Source of the DNA: a virus
Length of the DNA stretch: 23,924 nucleotides
IMG/VR virus record: IMGVR_UViG_3300037156_000024
Coordinates: 1-23,924 of that record
Strand: one strand, 5' to 3'
The translations under genes and the position numbers were made by a program. The notes beneath the pieces are model-generated. The model was not told the DNA's origin, did not search any database, and saw only the letters and a list, made by a program, of their open reading frames with translations. Of the stretch, positions 1 to 8,711 are shown one piece after another. The stretch's first letter is position 1. Each line of letters starts with the position of its first letter.

Positions 1-1
1 G

Positions 2-40
2 AAGATTGTGATAGGAGCCTACATGAGCGAGGACGCATGA
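2..40 (+). CDS. 3' end of an upstream phage gene (partial)
   Basis: An open frame enters from the left edge and reads KIVIGAYMSEDA before a TGA at 38-40. The stop overlaps the ATG of the next gene (ATGA), the same tight coupling seen elsewhere in the window, which supports it being the tail of a real coding sequence. Twelve residues are too few to assign a product. By position, just upstream of virion and ejection proteins, a structural role is likely but not shown. Confidence 0.5.
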   Translation, partial: KIVIGAYMSEDA

Positions 41-171
41 TAAGTCAACCACCGATAACGGCATCACTAGAGATAGACCCCAAAAAGGGTACTATCAACT
101 CTCAGATTTGGATTCTATGGATGAGAAGCATCGTAGATGCCCTAAACGCCATAGACAAAACGACTCCCTAG
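37..171 (+). CDS. Small virion-associated-type protein, 44 aa
   Basis: The frame begins at ATG 37, overlapping the previous stop, and ends at TAG 169-171, just ahead of the ribosome binding site of the radical SAM gene. The protein opens MISQPPITASLEIDPKKG and continues with a Trp-rich core (QIWILWMRSIVDALNAID). That layout of Pro/Ile lead, a D-x-x-x-G turn, then W-x-x-W and a short helix resembles small proteins found between connector/tail genes and internal-protein genes in podoviruses. The function of those is unknown to me. A ribosome site (AGGAG at 13-17) lies well upstream, so initiation probably depends on coupling to the preceding gene. Confidence 0.6.
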   Translation: MISQPPITASLEIDPKKGTINSQIWILWMRSIVDALNAIDKTTP

Positions 172-180
172 GAGGAGCAA

Positions 181-1206
181 ATGCAGACATTATCCATATG
201 CCCCACTTGTTACAAGAAGATACCAGCTAAGATTGTATTTTCCGAGGGAAAGGTATTGATGCAGAAGTCCTGCCTTGAACACGGATCTTTTGAGTCTGTT
301 ATGGAGACAGACATTCAGCACTTCAGTAACTTCTACCGTGTAGGCACTAAGGGGCTGAATAATAATATTATTATCCATGTAGAAGATAAGTGTAATATGA
401 CATGCTCGTGGTGCTACTACGGCGGGAAGGAAGAAAAACACGACTTCGATTACTACGATACTCTGCTTAGATCTTATAAGGCTCAGGAGTTTAGACTTCT
501 GCTGAGTGGTGGAGAGCCGACAGTACGACCCGATTATTTCAAGTTCCTAGAGGACGCTAAGGCTCGGGGATGGCATTGTACAACAATTACCAATATGCTG
601 AATTTAGCAGATGAAGGCTTTTTCCAAGAGGCTCTAAGACACAATTTCAGTCTCGGTTTATTTGACTATGCCCTTAGTTTTCAGCACCCTAAGAACTACA
701 GTGAAGCGGAACTCGCTAAAAAATTACAAGTTGCGGATAGGCTGAAGTCTACAGGTATTAGGGCGCAATGCGTAGCATTTTCCGTATCTTCGTTAAAAGA
801 ACTTGACTTTATTCGAGAATTCTACGATAATTACAAGGACATAGCTTTCATGTGGAGGATTCGCACCATATTCCGTAACTGGGAGAACAAGGACACTAAA
901 GAGAACCCTATCTATCTTTCGCAACTCAAGAGCGAAGTTACGGATAAGTTCTCAGACCTCATGCCTATTGTATGTGACGATATTGAGACCTCTAATGCTC
1001 ATTGTATTTACATGAAGATGGACGGAGGCAGGTACATATCTCTCAGTTCCGCGCCTACAGTAGAGAATATAGACTATCATTTGTGCTCTAGGCCCGTGTA
1101 TATGCTCGCAAGAGATCTTAATTGTTATAGCGTACCTGTAGCACAAATCGTTAATGAAGGACTTTCCAAAGGGTACAAAGACGGATTTAAGTTAGACCGG
1201 AGGTAA
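181..1206 (+). CDS. Radical SAM enzyme with N-terminal CPxC...CxxHG zinc motif
   Basis: A 341-residue protein with a strong ribosome site (GGAGGAG) before ATG 181. The radical SAM CxxxCxxC motif is at Cys71, Cys75 and Cys78 (KCNMTCSWC) and would bind the [4Fe-4S] cluster that cleaves S-adenosylmethionine. The SAM-binding LSGGEPT motif is at 108-114. An N-terminal CPTC (7-10) and a CLEHG (31-35) form a probable metal knuckle like that in the MJ0619/Tes group of radical SAM proteins, whose characterised members make C-C bonds or methylate unactivated carbons. The C-terminal part has a MDGGRY segment and further cysteines (HC, LC, NC). It sits between a virion-type mini-gene and DNA-ejection proteins in one reading direction, so it would be a late gene. 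The substrate is unknown. Radical SAM membership is firm; the Tes-like subgroup is a judgement from the N-terminal motif. Confidence 0.88.
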   Translation: MQTLSICPTCYKKIPAKIVFSEGKVLMQKSCLEHGSFESVMETDIQHFSNFYRVGTKGLNNNIIIHVEDKCNMTCSWCYYGGKEEKHDFDYYDTLLRSYKAQEFRLLLSGGEPTVRPDYFKFLEDAKARGWHCTTITNMLNLADEGFFQEALRHNFSLGLFDYALSFQHPKNYSEAELAKKLQVADRLKSTGIRAQCVAFSVSSLKELDFIREFYDNYKDIAFMWRIRTIFRNWENKDTKENPIYLSQLKSEVTDKFSDLMPIVCDDIETSNAHCIYMKMDGGRYISLSSAPTVENIDYHLCSRPVYMLARDLNCYSVPVAQIVNEGLSKGYKDGFKLDRR

Positions 1207-1209
1207 TAC

Positions 1210-1995
1210 ATGGTAGGATTTACAGCAGCGGTAGTAGTTGGAGGAGGGGCTATAGCCGCGGCGGAAATATCTTCTAACGCTTCAAAAAGTGCGGCAAACA
1301 CTCAGGCACAGTCAGCAGCTAACGCTTCTCAACTCCAACAGAATATGTTCAACACGACCCAAGCTAACTTAGCTCCATATCTACAGCAGGGGCAGCAGTA
1401 CGCCAATCAGCTTCAACAGCAGATGCCTAATCTTACTCGGCCGTATTCTGAGCAGATGTATCTAAACAGCCCTGAATATCAAAACGCTTTGATTGCAACT
1501 AAACAGAATCAAAATCAGCTTCTTGCAGGAGGAGCGCAGTCAGGTATGCTAGGTAGTGGCAATATGGCGTCGTCTCTACAGGCTAACGCACTTCAGCAGG
1601 CGCAACTTGGCTATGGTCAGGGCCTACAAGACTACAATGGTCAGCAACTCCAGACCTACAACATGCTTGCTAATCAGTCAGCACAGGGTCAGAACGCAGC
1701 GGCGGGGCTTGGGGGACTTAGTGCTAATGTGGGTAGTCAGATAGGAAACAACATGATTCAGGCAGGGCAAGCGCAAGCCCAAGGGCAGATAGGACAGGCA
1801 AACGCTATCTCCGGTGGTATTCAGAATTTGAGTAATCAGGCTCTTGGAGCTTACGGCGCGTACAATCAGAATCAGATGTACCAGAATTACTACAATCAGC
1901 AACAGCCTCAATACCAAGGTATGACGTACGGTGGAGGCCCGCAGGGCGGTTACACCTACAACAATCCACAGTCAGTAGGTCCACAAGCTCAATAA
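1210..1995 (+). CDS. Gln/Ala-rich DNA-ejection (internal virion) protein
   Basis: A 261-residue protein starting three bases after the previous stop, with its ribosome site (GGAGGTAA) running into that stop. The N-terminus is a hydrophobic Gly/Ala segment (VVVGGGAIAAAE, about 8-19). The rest is rich in Gln, Asn, Ala and Gly, with a central SPEYQ and an AGGAQSGMLGSG stretch. This composition and pattern is typical of short DNA-transfer/ejection proteins of podoviruses, which leave the capsid and help form the channel for genome delivery. The Gln content is extreme in the last third (NQMYQNYYNQQQPQYQ). Position ahead of the other internal proteins supports the assignment. There is no catalytic motif. 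Confidence 0.6.
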   Translation: MVGFTAAVVVGGGAIAAAEISSNASKSAANTQAQSAANASQLQQNMFNTTQANLAPYLQQGQQYANQLQQQMPNLTRPYSEQMYLNSPEYQNALIATKQNQNQLLAGGAQSGMLGSGNMASSLQANALQQAQLGYGQGLQDYNGQQLQTYNMLANQSAQGQNAAAGLGGLSANVGSQIGNNMIQAGQAQAQGQIGQANAISGGIQNLSNQALGAYGAYNQNQMYQNYYNQQQPQYQGMTYGGGPQGGYTYNNPQSVGPQAQ

Positions 1996-2004
1996 GGAGG
2001 TATC

Positions 2005-2424
2005 ATGGCAGCAAATATGTTGACTCTTATGGATGTGATGCCTTCGGCAGCGGATCGGATAAATATGGATCAGGCGGCTCGCCAACAGCAGGAGCAGAAT
2101 CAGTATCAAACCGCTGTACTCGCACAGGCTCAACAGCAAGCTATGGGGCAGAACGCTCTTACTCAGGCTCCGCAGGGGCAGGCTCCGCAGGGGCAGCAAC
2201 CTCCTAGCCAGAATGCTCTCATGCAACCCCCTCCCCCTCAAGGGCAGGCTCCCAATCCCCCGCAAGGTGAGAGTCAGATGCCAATACCTCAGAATTACGC
2301 AGAGGCCGTGGCGCAGGCGGAACAAGTACAGAGAGAGCAGGCACAGAAAGCTCAGTGGGGGACCGAAACTAAGCAGGTCCAAGAGTTGTTTATGCCTGCC
2401 GTTAAACAAGCTGAAGAGTATTAA
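2005..2424 (+). CDS. Gln/Pro-rich internal virion protein, N-terminal part
   Basis: A 139-residue frame with a good ribosome site (AAGGAGG) before ATG 2005. The sequence is dominated by Gln, Pro and Ala, with imperfect APQGQ repeats around residues 55-65. No enzymatic motif is visible. The TAA stop (2422-2424) is followed in the same frame by four sense codons and then the ATG of the next long frame (2437). The two could be one 544-residue protein interrupted by a single codon. CAA to TAA would be the simplest change, since the local sequence is Gln-rich. By position it belongs to the ejection/internal-protein block. Confidence 0.6.
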   Translation: MAANMLTLMDVMPSAADRINMDQAARQQQEQNQYQTAVLAQAQQQAMGQNALTQAPQGQAPQGQQPPSQNALMQPPPPQGQAPNPPQGESQMPIPQNYAEAVAQAEQVQREQAQKAQWGTETKQVQELFMPAVKQAEEY

Positions 2425-2436
2425 AATCCCGAATTA

Positions 2437-3639
2437 ATGAACTCCTATGCTGATGCTATGGAGAAGATGTATCCAGCTAATCCCCAGGTTAAACAAGCCG
2501 CAGCGCTCACTAGGAATAATAAGATATCTAAAGGTGTTGTCACAGTTTCTCCGACACAGGTCACAGATCCTGACTTCGCTAAGGCGCAGTTTGAGCTGAA
2601 TAAACCCTATCTACAAAGTATAGGTATAATGAATCCTGAAGAACTTATGGGAAAATCCATATCTTTCGATCAGAGCATAAAAACACGCGCTCAAGTTCCA
2701 GGCTCATTAAAAGTTGTACCTCCCACTAAAGAGGAATTAGCTGATACGAGAGAATTAAAAAAGATTAAAGCGGCAACTGATCTTGAAACACAAAGAGATA
2801 AAGCTCGTTTAGAACTTGAAACACATAAGGAAGAAGCTAGAGCCAGAGAAGACGATAAGAAGCAAAGAGCCGCAGAACTTCGATTTGAAGGACAGCAGAG
2901 GCAGGCAGAAAGACGTCAAGAACATGCAGACTCTAGGTTTGCCCAACAGATGAACCGCAGAGATCAGCAGCTTAATCTCAGAGAGTTCAATTCTTCGGCT
3001 CAACCAGCTAAGACCGCTTTGGGTACAGCGTACAGGACTTCCAATGCTGCATCAGGATTTGAGAACAAGATAAAGACCAACGTGGGCATCCTGAATAATT
3101 GGATGGACTCATATGTTAAGAAGCACCCTGGAGCGGCAAACCGTACCGGGGCAGTGTTCAACGATCTTATCAACGGGAAAATTACCGGGGAAGGGGATCT
3201 CTCCAACATCAAGACCGCAGCAGACTCCGTAGGTTTCGAGTTAGGCAAACTAGAGTCAGGGAGTTACGGTACAGCAGGAGCGACTAGAAACGCCACTGAG
3301 CACTTTAATCAGCTCAAGACAACCAAGGGCTTAGATAACATGAGGACTCAGCTTCGAGGCATCACTACGCTTGCTGAGTCAGCTAAAGCCTCACAGGATG
3401 CGGTTACTAAACAGGCTGAAGAGACACTGAATGACGTTAGGACTCAATACGGACTCCCCCCTACAGGCAAAGCAGGTAAGACTTCGACATCGCCTCCCAC
3501 TAGGCCGTCTACGTACAAAATAGGTGCTCCGTACAAAGCGCCGGGGCAGAATACTAAGCAGATCATAGGTGTTCACCGTGAAGGTGGAAAGGTTACAAAG
3601 CTAATGCTTTCTGATAAGTCCGTTGTGGAGGTTCAGTAA
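2437..3639 (+). CDS. Coiled-coil internal virion protein, C-terminal part
   Basis: A 400-residue frame. Residues about 100-185 are highly charged and Gln/Arg/Glu-rich (repeated E-A-R, Q-R-R, H-A-D-S-R), strongly suggesting a long coiled coil. The C-terminal 50 residues are Pro/Thr/Ser-rich, then end in a small basic tail. There is no ribosome site in the 20 bases before ATG 2437, although almost every other gene here has a strong one. The same frame is open upstream except for the TAA at 2422. It is therefore likely to be the downstream part of the 2005 gene, or translated by re-initiation. The stop shares a base with the next start (TAATG). Product inferred from context and composition. Confidence 0.6.
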   Translation: MNSYADAMEKMYPANPQVKQAAALTRNNKISKGVVTVSPTQVTDPDFAKAQFELNKPYLQSIGIMNPEELMGKSISFDQSIKTRAQVPGSLKVVPPTKEELADTRELKKIKAATDLETQRDKARLELETHKEEARAREDDKKQRAAELRFEGQQRQAERRQEHADSRFAQQMNRRDQQLNLREFNSSAQPAKTALGTAYRTSNAASGFENKIKTNVGILNNWMDSYVKKHPGAANRTGAVFNDLINGKITGEGDLSNIKTAADSVGFELGKLESGSYGTAGATRNATEHFNQLKTTKGLDNMRTQLRGITTLAESAKASQDAVTKQAEETLNDVRTQYGLPPTGKAGKTSTSPPTRPSTYKIGAPYKAPGQNTKQIIGVHREGGKVTKLMLSDKSVVEVQ

Positions 3640-6338
3640 TGGCGGGTGACGGGTGGGAAATGAAGGCGGGTGTAGCCGCACCTCCCGATGGTTGGGAGAT
3701 GAAGCCGGGGGCTAAAGCACCCTACGGAGAGATTCGGGCTAGGAAACCGTACCAAAAGATCAAAGAGTTTGCTTCCAAGATTTACACGCCTATTGCCGAG
3801 ACAGCGGGTATGGCTGTAGGTGGGGCATTGGGCGCAGCAGGTGGAGCATTTGGAGGCCCTGTTACCGCCGCCGCTGGAGGAGTCGCAGGTTCCGGTGCCG
3901 GTAATGTCGCAGGGCAGAGGTTCGCCCAAGGCGTAAATAGGTTGATAGGATATGACGCTCCCCCACCTCCTAGTGCTTTGGAGTCTTTTATTCAAGGTGC
4001 GGGTGCTGAACTGACAGGAGGTATCCTAGGCAAGACGGTTCAACTAGGGTCTAAGATTCATCGACCCAGTGCTCTCTCAGGTCGTGTTGCAGGGGAAGAA
4101 CTCAATATTGCAGCTTCCCCTAAATCTCCTGAAGCGGCCAGAGCTATTGCAGAGAGAACACGTAGAGTCGAAGCAGCTCAGAGACGTACAGGAACTCGGT
4201 TACCTAGAGCCTCTGTTACAGGAAGTGTGCGGCAAGCAGCTCTTGAAAGGCAAAGGATTGGAAAAAGTCCTGATGTTGCAGAGGCACTTCATGCACAACG
4301 CATAGAAGCACTCCGAAAGGCTGAACAGCATGTAGATACGACCTTTCCTCATAATACCAAGGCCGCTGAGACCGTTAGAAGCAATATAGAGGACTTCAAC
4401 GCTAGAGAGACACAGGCAACTGCACTTAAAGAGGAAGAACGTAGAGTCGTGGCAGACAGGGTTATCGGCAAGGTAAATACTCAGGCTGCACAGGAAGCAG
4501 AAGCTAAGAACCTAGCTGGCAGAAGTGCCGCTGAACAAGCTAATGTCGCTGCTGAAGCTGAAAAGACTTCCCGAGTAGCCCAAGCGGAAACCTCTTTTGG
4601 TCAGGCAGTACCAAAGGCTATCACCCCTGTATCTGCTGTAAAGACAGGTACTCAGGAGTTTGGGGCAGAGATACGAGGTAAGGTCCAAGCCGCTGAAAAG
4701 GCTTCTATGGAGCGTTTCAATAGCAAAGAGACTGGATATCCCCAAGAGAAGTTTACAGATTCAGGCGAGGCTCCTGCTGAAAATGCTGTAAGCACCTACG
4801 TTAGAGAGAACAAGCCCCCTTTAGGGTTCAGCCCCACAACTGACGTAGAGAAGAAGCTAGAAAGCCTCCTTGGGGGCGTAGAGCGGGAAGGTACTGATAT
4901 TCCTCCTATGACGTACTCTGACCTCAGAGACGTTTCTCAGGCTTCGGGTAGTGCCGCAGCAAGGGCTAGGAAGTCAGGAGACTACGACACCGCTAGGTAC
5001 TTTGGGGAATTGCGTAAGCATTCCGAGGCTGAGATTGCTTCGCTTCTTGAGGCCAAAAGTCCTGAAGTTCTAGCTGAGTATAAGAACCTTAACGCACTTT
5101 ATAAATCTCAGCAGATCGCAGGTTTCAGAGGCGGGGAAGTTGCTAATCAGCTTGCCCTTGGTAATGAGTCAGGGGGAGTGAAACTTGCTGAAGGTGCCAT
5201 AGCTTCGCACCTGGAGAATCCTGATAATGCTGTAGACCTTATTCGAGCCTTTGGTATCAAAGACATCACAGATAGAGGAAAGAGCCTGTCTCGTGCTGGC
5301 ATCCAGATGAAACAGGTCTCCGAAGAAGCTATCCTTCAGGCAGGTCAGAAAGCCGCTAAAGAAGTAATGAAGCCCTACTTTGATGATAGGATAGCATCTA
5401 TTTATCAAGGTGCCGGTGGAGGTAAGACCGGAGCAAAAGCAGTAGAGCGATATCTCAGAAAGCCCGAGACTCAGAGTATCTTACGCGCCTATGGTATGCC
5501 TGAAGAGTACAGCGAGTTGGCTAGACGTGCTAAGGCTATTGGAGAGGCTAGGGCTGAGAAGGTTCCGCTGTTGAAGCATAAAGAACTGGCTCCTGAAGTG
5601 ATACGGGCTGCAAAGATACAGCTTGCTACTAACACTCTCAAGGTGGACGACCCCACTAAGATTTATAGTTACCTTACCAAGTCAGGAAATCCTAAGAAAG
5701 CCTTTGGCGACTTAATGCGGGTGTCTTCGTCTCCTGCATACCGAGACTCGGTAAAGGAGCTAGTCAAGGATGGTGTTAAGGACGCTATTAAGCAGCGAGG
5801 TATCAACCCTTACTCCAAGACTCCTACTCCCGAGGAGAAGCACCTACAGACTCTAATGACTCAAGTGTTCAATAAGGCAGAGAGGCAGTCTCTCTGGGAC
5901 TTTCATACCATCGTTGAAGCGGCTCCGTCTCCAGGCACTATGGGGGCAAAGACTGACCTAGGCATAGGCAAGGGAGCTAAGGAGTTGGCAGAAGGTGTGG
6001 CGGCTATTCCGATGGGGTATGAAGGATATTGGGCCAAGCACGGCTTCCTGACGCTGATAAATAAACTCGGAAGCAAATACTCCTCAGCGGCAGAGAAAGT
6101 TCTAGACGAAGCACTGATAGATCCCGCAAAGGCAAAAATTGCTCTCCAAGCGTTTAAAACCGGAGAAACGGGTAGGTTCAGGCAGTTAGTACAGAAAGCA
6201 TACGATGCTGACTCCATTCAGGCGAGGATCTTAAAGAGATTGCCAATAGCAGGCGCTGTTGCCGGATACAACGTAGCTACGACCCCTGAACCAGAAGAAC
6301 AGCCTATAGAAAGGCAGAAGACCTACGGAGGTGAGTGA
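3639..6338 (+). CDS. Large internal virion protein (ejection-type), 899 aa
   Basis: The largest protein of the late block. It starts at a TAATG overlap with the preceding gene and has GGAGG upstream. The first 30 residues carry a tandem DGWEMK-x-G motif (about 4-9 and 17-22). Residues about 55-90 are a Gly/Ala-rich, glycine-zipper-like segment ([13 protein letters not shown]), suited to membrane insertion during DNA ejection. About 150-330 is long, charged and helical with many Ala/Glu/Arg/Gln, followed by mixed helical sequence to the end. There is no visible enzyme motif such as a transglycosylase signature. Length and position match the large ejection proteins of podoviruses. An assigned molecular activity would be a guess. 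Confidence 0.6.
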
Positions 6339-6523: not shown

Positions 6524-8113
6524 GTGCGTATGGTTCCCGCTTTAAAGATAGATGGAAAGCTCCACAAAGGAGCTGCAAACGACAGCCACAACACTATTGG
6601 TTTATCCATAGGCGTGGAGTCTCCGCCGGAAGCCTCACGAGGTTTCGTGGTTGGGGGGCAGTTTCTTACTCGTAAGCAGGCGCTTGGGTTCCTCAAGACT
6701 AATGATCCCGAGACCTACAGGAAATTACCCAAAGAAGCCTTGCGTATCGGGCTGCATAGTGAGTTCCTTGCTAAAGCTCTTGGTATCAAACAGAAACCTG
6801 TAGCAGTCAAGATTATTGCAGAGGCTAGGGATGAGAGAGAGGAGCGCACGCCTGAAGCTAAGAAGCCTTTGTCTGAAATGACTGCCATAGTCTATGATCG
6901 TGGGGGGCTGTACCTCTACTGCGCTGAGAAACTAGCTGAGAAATACGGTAAGGTGCTGTACTATCTCGCAGACTCGGATGCCTACCCAACTTCACAGAAG
7001 AGCACTATCGGTTCTGGAATACCCAAAGTTAAGCGTATCCACGACCTGTGGAAATTTATAGACTCTGCTGATATCATTTACTTTTTCGATTGCTACGATG
7101 GACAGCTCCAGCATTGGCTAAGAGAGAAAGGTTATAAAGTTTTCGGCTCCGGTCTCGGAGAGAAAATAGAGATCGACAAGATATTCTTTCTTGAAACTCT
7201 AGAAAAGTTAGGGCTTCCCTGCCCCAAAACCTATGTCGCAGAAGGTATGGACGATCTTTGTAAGTATCTGAAAGATCATGACGGAGAAACACTCTTCCTA
7301 AAAAATCTTCACCGTGGTGATTTCGAGAGCCGTAAGTTTACTAGCATGGCACAGTCTAGACCATTTCTAAATGACCTCAAGAAGAGACTCGGTTCCGCTT
7401 CAGATACTATAGAAGTCTTAGTTCAGCATAAGATAGACTCAGTAGTAGAGGTTGGGTACGATGGGTACCTCGTAGATGGGGAGTTTACTACTAACTGCAT
7501 AGTAGGGTATGAAATAAAAGATAGAGGTTTTGTTGCTAAGGTATTCAAAGAAACTCCTGAGATTGTGGGAAGTATTAACACAGCCTTTGGACCTATTCTC
7601 AAGAAACTAGGGGGAAGAGGTAACTACAGCACAGAAATTCGTGTCACTGCTAAGGGGGAACAGTTTTATATAGATCCTACTCAGCGAGTGCCATCTCCTC
7701 CAGGTGAACTACAATGTGAGATATACGAGAATTGGGCAGAAGCCACGTACCAGATCGCTTGTGGCGAGCTACCTGAATTTAAACCTAAAGCTATGTACGG
7801 CGCGGAAGTAACCTTGACCTCTGCTTGGGCAGATGAGCATGAGATCCATGTTAAGTTTCCCCCGAAGTTCAAGCAGCACATTAAGCTAAAGAATCACACC
7901 ATCCGAGATGGTGAATATTACTGTATACCTAATGGTAACGGTGCGTTCTTTGGGGCTGTGGTTGCGTGGTCGGACACTCTTCAGAAGGCAATAGATAAAG
8001 TCTGCGAAGTTTGTGAGGCTGTAGAGGCAGATGAGTACAGTTTTGATAAGTCCGTGTTTGACGAAGCCATGGAATCAGTAGAAAAAGGTAAAAAGTTTGG
8101 TGTACTCTACTAA
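6524..8113 (+). CDS. ATP-grasp ligase with phage-type N-terminal domain
   Basis: A 529-residue protein. GTG 6524 is chosen over ATG 6530 because AAGGAG lies seven bases before it. Residues 1-90 contain RGFVVGGQFLTRKQA and LHSEFL, a GFV-x-x-x-G-x-FL-x-R-x-x-A...L-H-S pattern common at the ends of phage polyvalent or virion proteins. From about 118 there is a Rossmann-like pre-ATP-grasp domain (MTAIVYDRGG, KVLYYLADSD). From about 215 there is an ATP-grasp fold with lysines in the LFLKN region (256-261), a strand EVLVQHKID (297-305), and metal/ATP-site candidates in TEIRVTAKGEQFYIDPTQR (369-387). The C-terminal portion resembles the PurD/carbamoyl-phosphate-synthase type (GAVVAWSDTLQKAIDKV). These enzymes join a carboxylate to an amine or similar through an acyl-phosphate. 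The substrate is not apparent. It is followed closely by a transporter gene. Confidence 0.7.
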   Translation: MRMVPALKIDGKLHKGAANDSHNTIGLSIGVESPPEASRGFVVGGQFLTRKQALGFLKTNDPETYRKLPKEALRIGLHSEFLAKALGIKQKPVAVKIIAEARDEREERTPEAKKPLSEMTAIVYDRGGLYLYCAEKLAEKYGKVLYYLADSDAYPTSQKSTIGSGIPKVKRIHDLWKFIDSADIIYFFDCYDGQLQHWLREKGYKVFGSGLGEKIEIDKIFFLETLEKLGLPCPKTYVAEGMDDLCKYLKDHDGETLFLKNLHRGDFESRKFTSMAQSRPFLNDLKKRLGSASDTIEVLVQHKIDSVVEVGYDGYLVDGEFTTNCIVGYEIKDRGFVAKVFKETPEIVGSINTAFGPILKKLGGRGNYSTEIRVTAKGEQFYIDPTQRVPSPPGELQCEIYENWAEATYQIACGELPEFKPKAMYGAEVTLTSAWADEHEIHVKFPPKFKQHIKLKNHTIRDGEYYCIPNGNGAFFGAVVAWSDTLQKAIDKVCEVCEAVEADEYSFDKSVFDEAMESVEKGKKFGVLY

Positions 8114-8141: not shown

Positions 8142-8711
8142 ATGAAACTAGGAAAAATGTTGTTACTTGCCAGCTTTTTAGGTACTTTTGCAGAGTGTAT
8201 GCTACTCCCATTATGGTCTACTTTCACAGATAAATGTGGCGGAAGTATTTTAGACGCGGGTATTGGGTATGCCGGATTTTGTATAGCTACAGGTTTGGTA
8301 GTTATGTTTGTGGGCAGTACAAAATTTTATGCGAGAAATGCTAAGTGGATGCTCCTATGGGGATTTGCCATAGCGGGAATAGGAGATCTTCTTTATCTAT
8401 GCGTATCTAATAAGTATGAGCTATTTGCTGTTCAGGCGCTTATCGGTATTGCACTAGGTGTCGCTAACCCTGCTTGGGATTCGCTATTTTGTGACGATGA
8501 GAGTGACGATAAATCGTCAGCGGGGAGATGGTCATTTTGGACGGGAGGAGTGTCATTTGTCAGTGGTCTCTCCGCTTTATTTGGAGCTACAATAGTTAGG
8601 TACTACGGATTTAATACTATGTTTATTTTGATGTTCTGTTTTGACTGTGTATCAGTAGCTTATTGCTACCGTATTGCTACTCGCACGGAGGTGCCAAATG
8701 AAAAAGCCTAA
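8142..8711 (+). CDS. Six-helix half MFS-type transporter
   Basis: A 189-residue integral membrane protein with GGAG upstream of ATG 8142. Six hydrophobic segments can be seen at about 5-22, 39-58, 67-87, 91-108, 129-148 and 155-175, with a polar acidic loop between the fourth and fifth (FCDDESDDKSSAGR, about 124-137). The G-rich helices, the AVQALIGIALGVANPAWDSLF stretch and the overall arrangement match one half of a major facilitator superfamily transporter, which normally has twelve helices. It may act as a dimer. It lies 28 bases after the ATP-grasp gene and probably shares its transcript, so the two may work on the same compound. The end overlaps the next small gene. Transport substrate and direction cannot be inferred. 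Confidence 0.68.
   Translation: MKLGKMLLLASFLGTFAECMLLPLWSTFTDKCGGSILDAGIGYAGFCIATGLVVMFVGSTKFYARNAKWMLLWGFAIAGIGDLLYLCVSNKYELFAVQALIGIALGVANPAWDSLFCDDESDDKSSAGRWSFWTGGVSFVSGLSALFGATIVRYYGFNTMFILMFCFDCVSVAYCYRIATRTEVPNEKA

Follow-up and report, generated by a model that had tools for sequence, protein, structure and literature searches.

The window analysed here, that is, the whole stretch of 23,924 nucleotides (a 23.9-kb virus fragment, IMG/VR record IMGVR_UViG_3300037156_000024), carries near its left end a gene for a radical SAM (rSAM) enzyme, followed directly by a set of DNA ejection genes. The features relevant to this study are as follows:

1..171, + strand: 3' end of the small-protein gene preceding the rSAM gene, in the same position as the short protein upstream of the rSAM in contigs L005 and L012
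181..1206, + strand: rSAM enzyme (341 aa, ATG start, TAA stop) composed of a rubredoxin-like ribbon and a radical SAM core
184..303, + strand: ribbon domain (PF23545), residues 2-41, C7-x2-C10-x20-C31-x2-H34, invariant in 30/30
391..414, + strand: CX3CX2C radical SAM cluster motif CNMTCSWC (C71, C75, C78; sequence), invariant in 30/30
505..522, + strand: SGGEPT motif, residues 109-114 (sequence), of which GGEPT is invariant
1199..1203, + strand: GGAGG ribosome-binding site of the ejection gene (sequence), within the last rSAM codons
1210..1995, + strand: ejection protein of P22 gp7 / T7 gp14 type (phrog_598, composition), the proposed substrate
1213..1269, + strand: N-terminal Gly/Ala-rich hydrophobic segment of the ejection protein, its most hydrophobic stretch and the proposed recognition/modification region
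2005..2424, + strand: gp20-like ejection gene, part one, closed by an in-frame TAA
2437..3639, + strand: gp20-like gene, part two, in unchanged frame and with no clear ribosome-binding site
3639..6338, + strand: 899-aa protein, placed by position at the gp16 position of the ejection module

The ORF at 181-1206 is preceded by a strong ribosome-binding site (GGAGGAG), and its product joins two recognisable domains. The N-terminus, with its ligands contained in CPTC (C7, C10) and CLEHG (C31, H34), is matched by Pfam PF23545, Zn_ribbon_HMPTM (E 9e-17, 60.8 bits against a cut-off of 27), and carries the C-x2-C-x20-C-x2-H pattern of the HMPTM/Tes ribbon proteins, while the CX3CX2C motif, the PF04055 core (E 1.7e-9, 38.5 bits against 29.5) and the predicted fold assign the protein to the radical SAM superfamily. 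Thirty viral homologues show no variation at the four ligands of the ribbon, at the three cysteines of the cluster or in GGEPT, the ribbon ligands and cluster cysteines being the only invariant metal-type ligands; the sole near-invariant cysteine beyond both motifs is C197, which is present in 28 of the 30 and missing in clade II of the tree described below. Between close rSAM pairs dN/dS is 0.02-0.19, indicative of purifying selection, which together with the invariance in the 30 homologues argues that these motifs are not due to chance. An intact radical SAM protein with CxxxCxxC, SGGEPT and an N-terminal knuckle, as proposed in the preliminary description of this DNA, is therefore confirmed by the Pfam matches and by the homologues.

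Only 3 nt separate the rSAM stop codon from the start of the next gene, whose product (261 aa, 20% Gln, without Cys or Trp) matches phrog_598, 'DNA ejection', at an E-value of about 3e-18 (3.3e-18), the family of P22 gp7 itself; the earlier placement of the rSAM directly before a Gln-rich ejection gene was thus correct. From position 1210 onwards the gene order mirrors the 7-20-16 layout of the P22 record, the 899-aa protein of 3639-6338 having no family match in Pfam or PHROG. The gp20-like gene (2005-3639) is split by one in-frame TAA (2422-2424), which may represent a natural split, a nonsense change or a sequence error, and its homologue in L005 (5741-7576) is a single ORF.

Further downstream, positions 6524-8113 encode a 529-aa protein which has no Pfam or PHROG match and whose AlphaFold2 model (pLDDT 79) matches the ATP-grasp folds of GAR synthetase and biotin carboxylase (E 1e-18). 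Copies with 58-77% identity are present in L003, L005, L006 and L042, with a more distant one in L021. A joint pathway of the rSAM and the ATP-grasp protein was considered and rejected, since the latter also occurs in the rSAM-free L006 and was not seen in most of the rSAM contigs read, so that the two genes appear to be independent. The adjoining region (8142-8711) specifies a half-length (189 aa) major-facilitator-type membrane protein in a phage late operon. An adenylosuccinate synthetase-like gene, possibly of PurZ type, was observed in a related phage whose ATP-grasp protein is 76% identical (L003 11349-12068 and L004 1-414).

Tes, GDGT-MAS and MJ0619 are one protein, and pterin methyltransferase (HMPTM) is an older reading of MJ0619 that could not be corroborated (PMC9433317). 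The rubredoxin site of this protein, C9-x2-C12-x20-C33-x2-H36 (PMC9433317), has the spacing of the phage ribbon, and when an AlphaFold2 model of the rSAM (pLDDT 91.6) was compared with PDB structures the best fold match was Tes (1.5e-17, TM 0.72-0.76), followed by the peptide maturases SuiB and SkfB and then by viperin and MoaA. The scores against curated NCBIfam models, in contrast, fell far below their cut-offs both for Tes/GDGT-MAS (NF045702, 72.6 bits against 450) and for TrsS (NF045646, 78.2 bits against 490). No intervening domain corresponding to the N-terminal auxiliary [Fe4S4] domain occurs in the 30 viral sequences, and a CPYDCGLC-type segment that is additionally present in cellular relatives such as L002 is absent from the viral rSAMs. 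Likewise, no C-terminal auxiliary [Fe4S4] domain was found in this protein of 341 aa (526 aa in Tes), C197 being its sole further near-invariant cysteine, and a column census of Cys in the 30 viral homologues revealed no SPASM/twitch auxiliary-cluster cysteines. Based on the two missing [Fe4S4] domains, the low Tes and TrsS scores and the few invariant ligands, the phage rSAM is, as judged from its sequence, a minimal two-domain relative (ribbon plus single-cluster core) and not a Tes. Of the proposed Tes/MJ0619 affiliation, the N-terminal ribbon with its Tes spacing is retained while family membership is not, and a direct Tes function was rejected on account of the missing auxiliary domains.

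The same absences bear on the suggestion that the enzyme acts on membrane lipids, like Tes, and thereby aids insertion of the ejection pore. Tes is the closest characterised fold, and in two Bacteroidota genomes (L002 9223-11362, L056 841-3022) a full-length Tes-like rSAM gene lies beside an lgt-like (prolipoprotein diacylglyceryl transferase) gene, which may point to a function of these bacterial relatives in lipids or lipoproteins; however, the intermediate of the Tes reaction is attached, through a sulfur atom, to one of the enzyme's [Fe4S4] clusters (PMC9433317), whereas the phage protein lacks the [4Fe-4S]C domain and the N-terminal auxiliary domain alike. A lipid target, which had also been raised in the preliminary description, is thus possible but not favoured, and we consider it improbable. 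Modification of nucleotides or DNA by an enzyme of QueE, viperin or tRNA type is a common role among phage rSAMs, and viperin is indeed found among both the fold and the profile matches, but the score for prokaryotic viperin is only 42.5 bits (NF038283, cut-off 180), the matches to QueE are weak (phrog_2076 at E 0.008, and TM 0.36-0.41 for QueE chains, far below Tes), no partner deazaguanine genes were noticed in the 23.9-kb fragment and the gene is located in a virion module. The QueE/deazaguanine and viperin readings were rejected on these weak profile and fold matches, in agreement with the initial impression that the protein is unlike QueE, and a nucleotide target appears very improbable.

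The first homologue was identified in L005, a contig reached via its ATP-grasp gene. A single-protein pattern scan of viral contigs returned no homologue and alignment-based scans were required, through which the family was traced to 38 distinct IMG/VR contigs including the window, while searches of 50,697 phage records at E 1e-3 and E 1 returned none. In a maximum-likelihood tree the phage rSAMs are split from nine cellular relatives with a support of 100/100; the attachment point of clade II (L005, L014) is unsure owing to long branches flagged in the tree. Among 296 Bacteroidota genomes, a sample picked only because one relative was found there, matches were mainly full-length Tes-like or core-only, those ribbon-bearing ones that were read being full-length Tes-like, and no minimal ribbon-plus-core protein was recognised among the inspected matches. 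As far as these sequence comparisons reach, the phage rSAM clade is an undescribed, new enzyme family in uncultured short-tailed phages. One of these phages (L009 1055-6817) additionally carries glycosyltransferase-like and nucleotide-sugar-enzyme-like ORFs upstream of its tail genes. The replication genes of the window have relatives in phage Rollin and Rhizobium phages, which contained nothing informative on the slot before the ejection gene.

The gene following the rSAM is visible in 32 of the 38 contigs, which do not represent 32 independent events since some are near-duplicates, and in 30 of these a small Gly/Ala-rich hydrophobic ejection-type ORF lies directly after the rSAM gene. This arrangement is found inside the ejection module in 26 cases, while the four members of a single lineage (L023, L024, L025 and L045), which is nested within the same rSAM clade of the tree, exhibit the order TerL-rSAM-122 aa-portal, where the 122-aa protein is small, possesses an N-terminal hydrophobic segment and has no family match. 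In the remaining two contigs, both of clade II, the rSAM is separated from the ejection-type gene by a GNAT, in one of them also by a further gene. In L014 the further gene (4669-5247, phrog_19440) is small, without a Pfam class and, by reading, of short glycosyltransferase type.

For 23 loci, a few of them closely related, the two genes were compared: the gap does not exceed 4 nt, or the genes overlap, in 22. All 253 rSAM pairs are alignable, with a median identity of 51%, while just 39 of the 253 partner pairs are detectable at E 1e-5, most being unalignable. The 'DNA ejection' family phrog_598 matches 15 of the 22 scanned rSAM-linked partners (16/23 when the rSAM-free L006 is counted), the other seven having been typed as ejection proteins by position, composition and N-terminal segment, and no invariant residue is common to all partners, with only Met1 and one Gly approaching this. 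As adjacency to an ejection-type gene holds across otherwise divergent phages, functional coupling of the two proteins is likely, and the virion-protein target suggested at the outset is now the best explanation of the locus; the covalent modification that formed part of that suggestion is something we infer.

Against a virion target, it may be argued that the slot before the ejection gene is an accessory-gene landing site, in which case infection would be the stage at which the rSAM acts, on a metabolite or some target of the host, and late expression together with inherited gene order would account for its location. The occupants of the slot do differ (rSAM, GNAT, a further gene), and the main counter-example comes from the phiKMV group: the gene of its GNAT Rac stands where the structural cluster begins and overlaps the first structural gene, yet the enzyme acts on host RNA polymerase alpha (PMC7552054). 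Location within a virion gene cluster is therefore no proof of a virion target. Accessory genes would, however, be likely to turn up in more than one place across diverse phages, whereas here 30 of 32 directly precede one kind of protein, and the adjacency is kept at a second genome position by genes that usually overlap or touch, which leaves the landing site a credible but rather doubtful alternative. Co-location could also result from block recombination, in which the rSAM gene travels together with the 5' part of the ejection gene.

A transmembrane-like N-terminal segment is present in 23/23 clade I partners and is lacking or weak in those of clade II; a hydrophobic N-terminus also occurs outside rSAM phages, in Cobavirus IVP B and T7 gp14. 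Seven partners bear an extension of roughly 13-31 residues ahead of this segment, and the corresponding rSAMs form one clade (97/100). The L034 and L039 partners are 74% identical over 198 residues, with rSAMs that are 41% identical, and the extension is present in the L039 partner and not in that of L034. This covariation of extension and rSAM clade may be what would be expected of co-adaptation between enzyme and N-terminus, but block recombination predicts the same and would by itself explain it. According to the P22 record, host OpdA cuts the first 20 residues from gp7, which provides N-terminal processing with a precedent in the gp7 class.

Other short-tailed phages place different genes in the same slot. 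In Lentibacter phage ICBM2 (Cobavirus) a phrog_1249 GNAT lies directly before internal virion protein B, and the Cobavirus GNAT has been proposed to correspond to T7 gp13 (PMC6775973); gene 13 of T7 immediately precedes gene 14, and gene 14 of P22 immediately precedes gene 7. SP6-like phages have the order GNAT, small ORF and portal, the small ORF of PP1 belonging to phrog_1320, the family of T7 gp7.3, and L006 has a GNAT alone where L005 has an rSAM and a GNAT. From these gene orders it can be deduced that the two positions taken by the rSAM are also those in which GNATs are found. T7 gp13 bears the Pfam name 'probable scaffold protein' and has a suggested role in virion morphogenesis (PMC6775973), by analogy with which the rSAM protein could assist the ejection protein as its chaperone or scaffold, without catalysis being its main role, but the invariance of the cluster cysteines, GGEPT and ribbon ligands (n=30) renders this quite improbable.

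We therefore favour, with a probability of roughly 0.5, the reading that the rSAM is a maturase which covalently modifies the product of the gene immediately downstream, the membrane-inserting ejection protein, and this suggests a phage that chemically finishes its own injection machinery. Proteins of the gp14 type localise to the outer membrane, whose pore they are believed to build (PMC8954989). We infer that the neighbour is the substrate and that the enzyme acts during virion assembly, when it would bind the gp7/gp14-type protein soon after its synthesis, with the Gly/Ala-rich transmembrane-like N-terminal segment as the most likely point of contact and probably also the site of maturation. 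SAM would be reductively cleaved at the CX3CX2C cluster and the resulting 5'-deoxyadenosyl radical would take a hydrogen off an unactivated carbon of the ejection protein, with the ribbon metal site acting as an electron relay or as a structural/docking element, to yield an altered ejection protein able to make the membrane pore for DNA entry.

Candidate reactions are epimerisation, hydroxylation, dehydrogenation or a C-C, C-N or C-O cross-link. Cysteine is absent from 17/23 partners and from the window's own ejection-module proteins; a thioether-type (Cys) modification is therefore unlikely and was rejected as a general product. The Gln methylation initially put forward found no evidence in its favour, no cobalamin-domain family being matched by the rSAM. 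On a more speculative level, short-tailed phages could maintain a dedicated slot before their small ejected virion proteins for the enzyme that matures them, of GNAT type in many and an rSAM here, the latter altering the N-terminal segment of the pore in its backbone or its side chains, for instance by epimerisation or a cross-link, and creating the first virion part made by radical SAM chemistry. The literature searched contained no example of a radical SAM enzyme that modifies a virion ejection protein. If the maturase reading is true, phages employ radical chemistry in the maturation of the pore that carries DNA across the envelope, the slot that T7 gene 13 and P22 gene 14 occupy acquires a function, and a small, genetically paired enzyme and substrate become available for study.

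Compared with known systems, the phage rSAM is closest to Tes (PDB 7TOL/7TOM), its top match in sequence and fold, with which it shares the ribbon spacing and the radical SAM core, and from which it differs in its shorter length, in the absence of both the [Fe4S4]N (3 Cys + His) and [Fe4S4]C domains and in its phage ejection context. The phage QueE-like rSAMs (phrog_2076) share the superfamily but match weakly in profile and fold and occur in another context. SuiB and SkfB resemble it in core fold and in modifying the product of an adjoining gene, as is proposed here, whereas the phage enzyme is without SPASM/auxiliary-cluster cysteines and its partners are mostly Cys-free. The phage GNATs (phrog_1249), T7 gp13 and P22 gp14 have an enzyme fold unrelated to rSAM in the case of the GNATs and are likened by position alone in the case of gp13 and gp14, but all share with the rSAM the slot directly before a gp7/gp14-type ejection gene, just as the SP6-like GNAT shares with the TerL-portal rSAM its place before a small virion protein and the portal.
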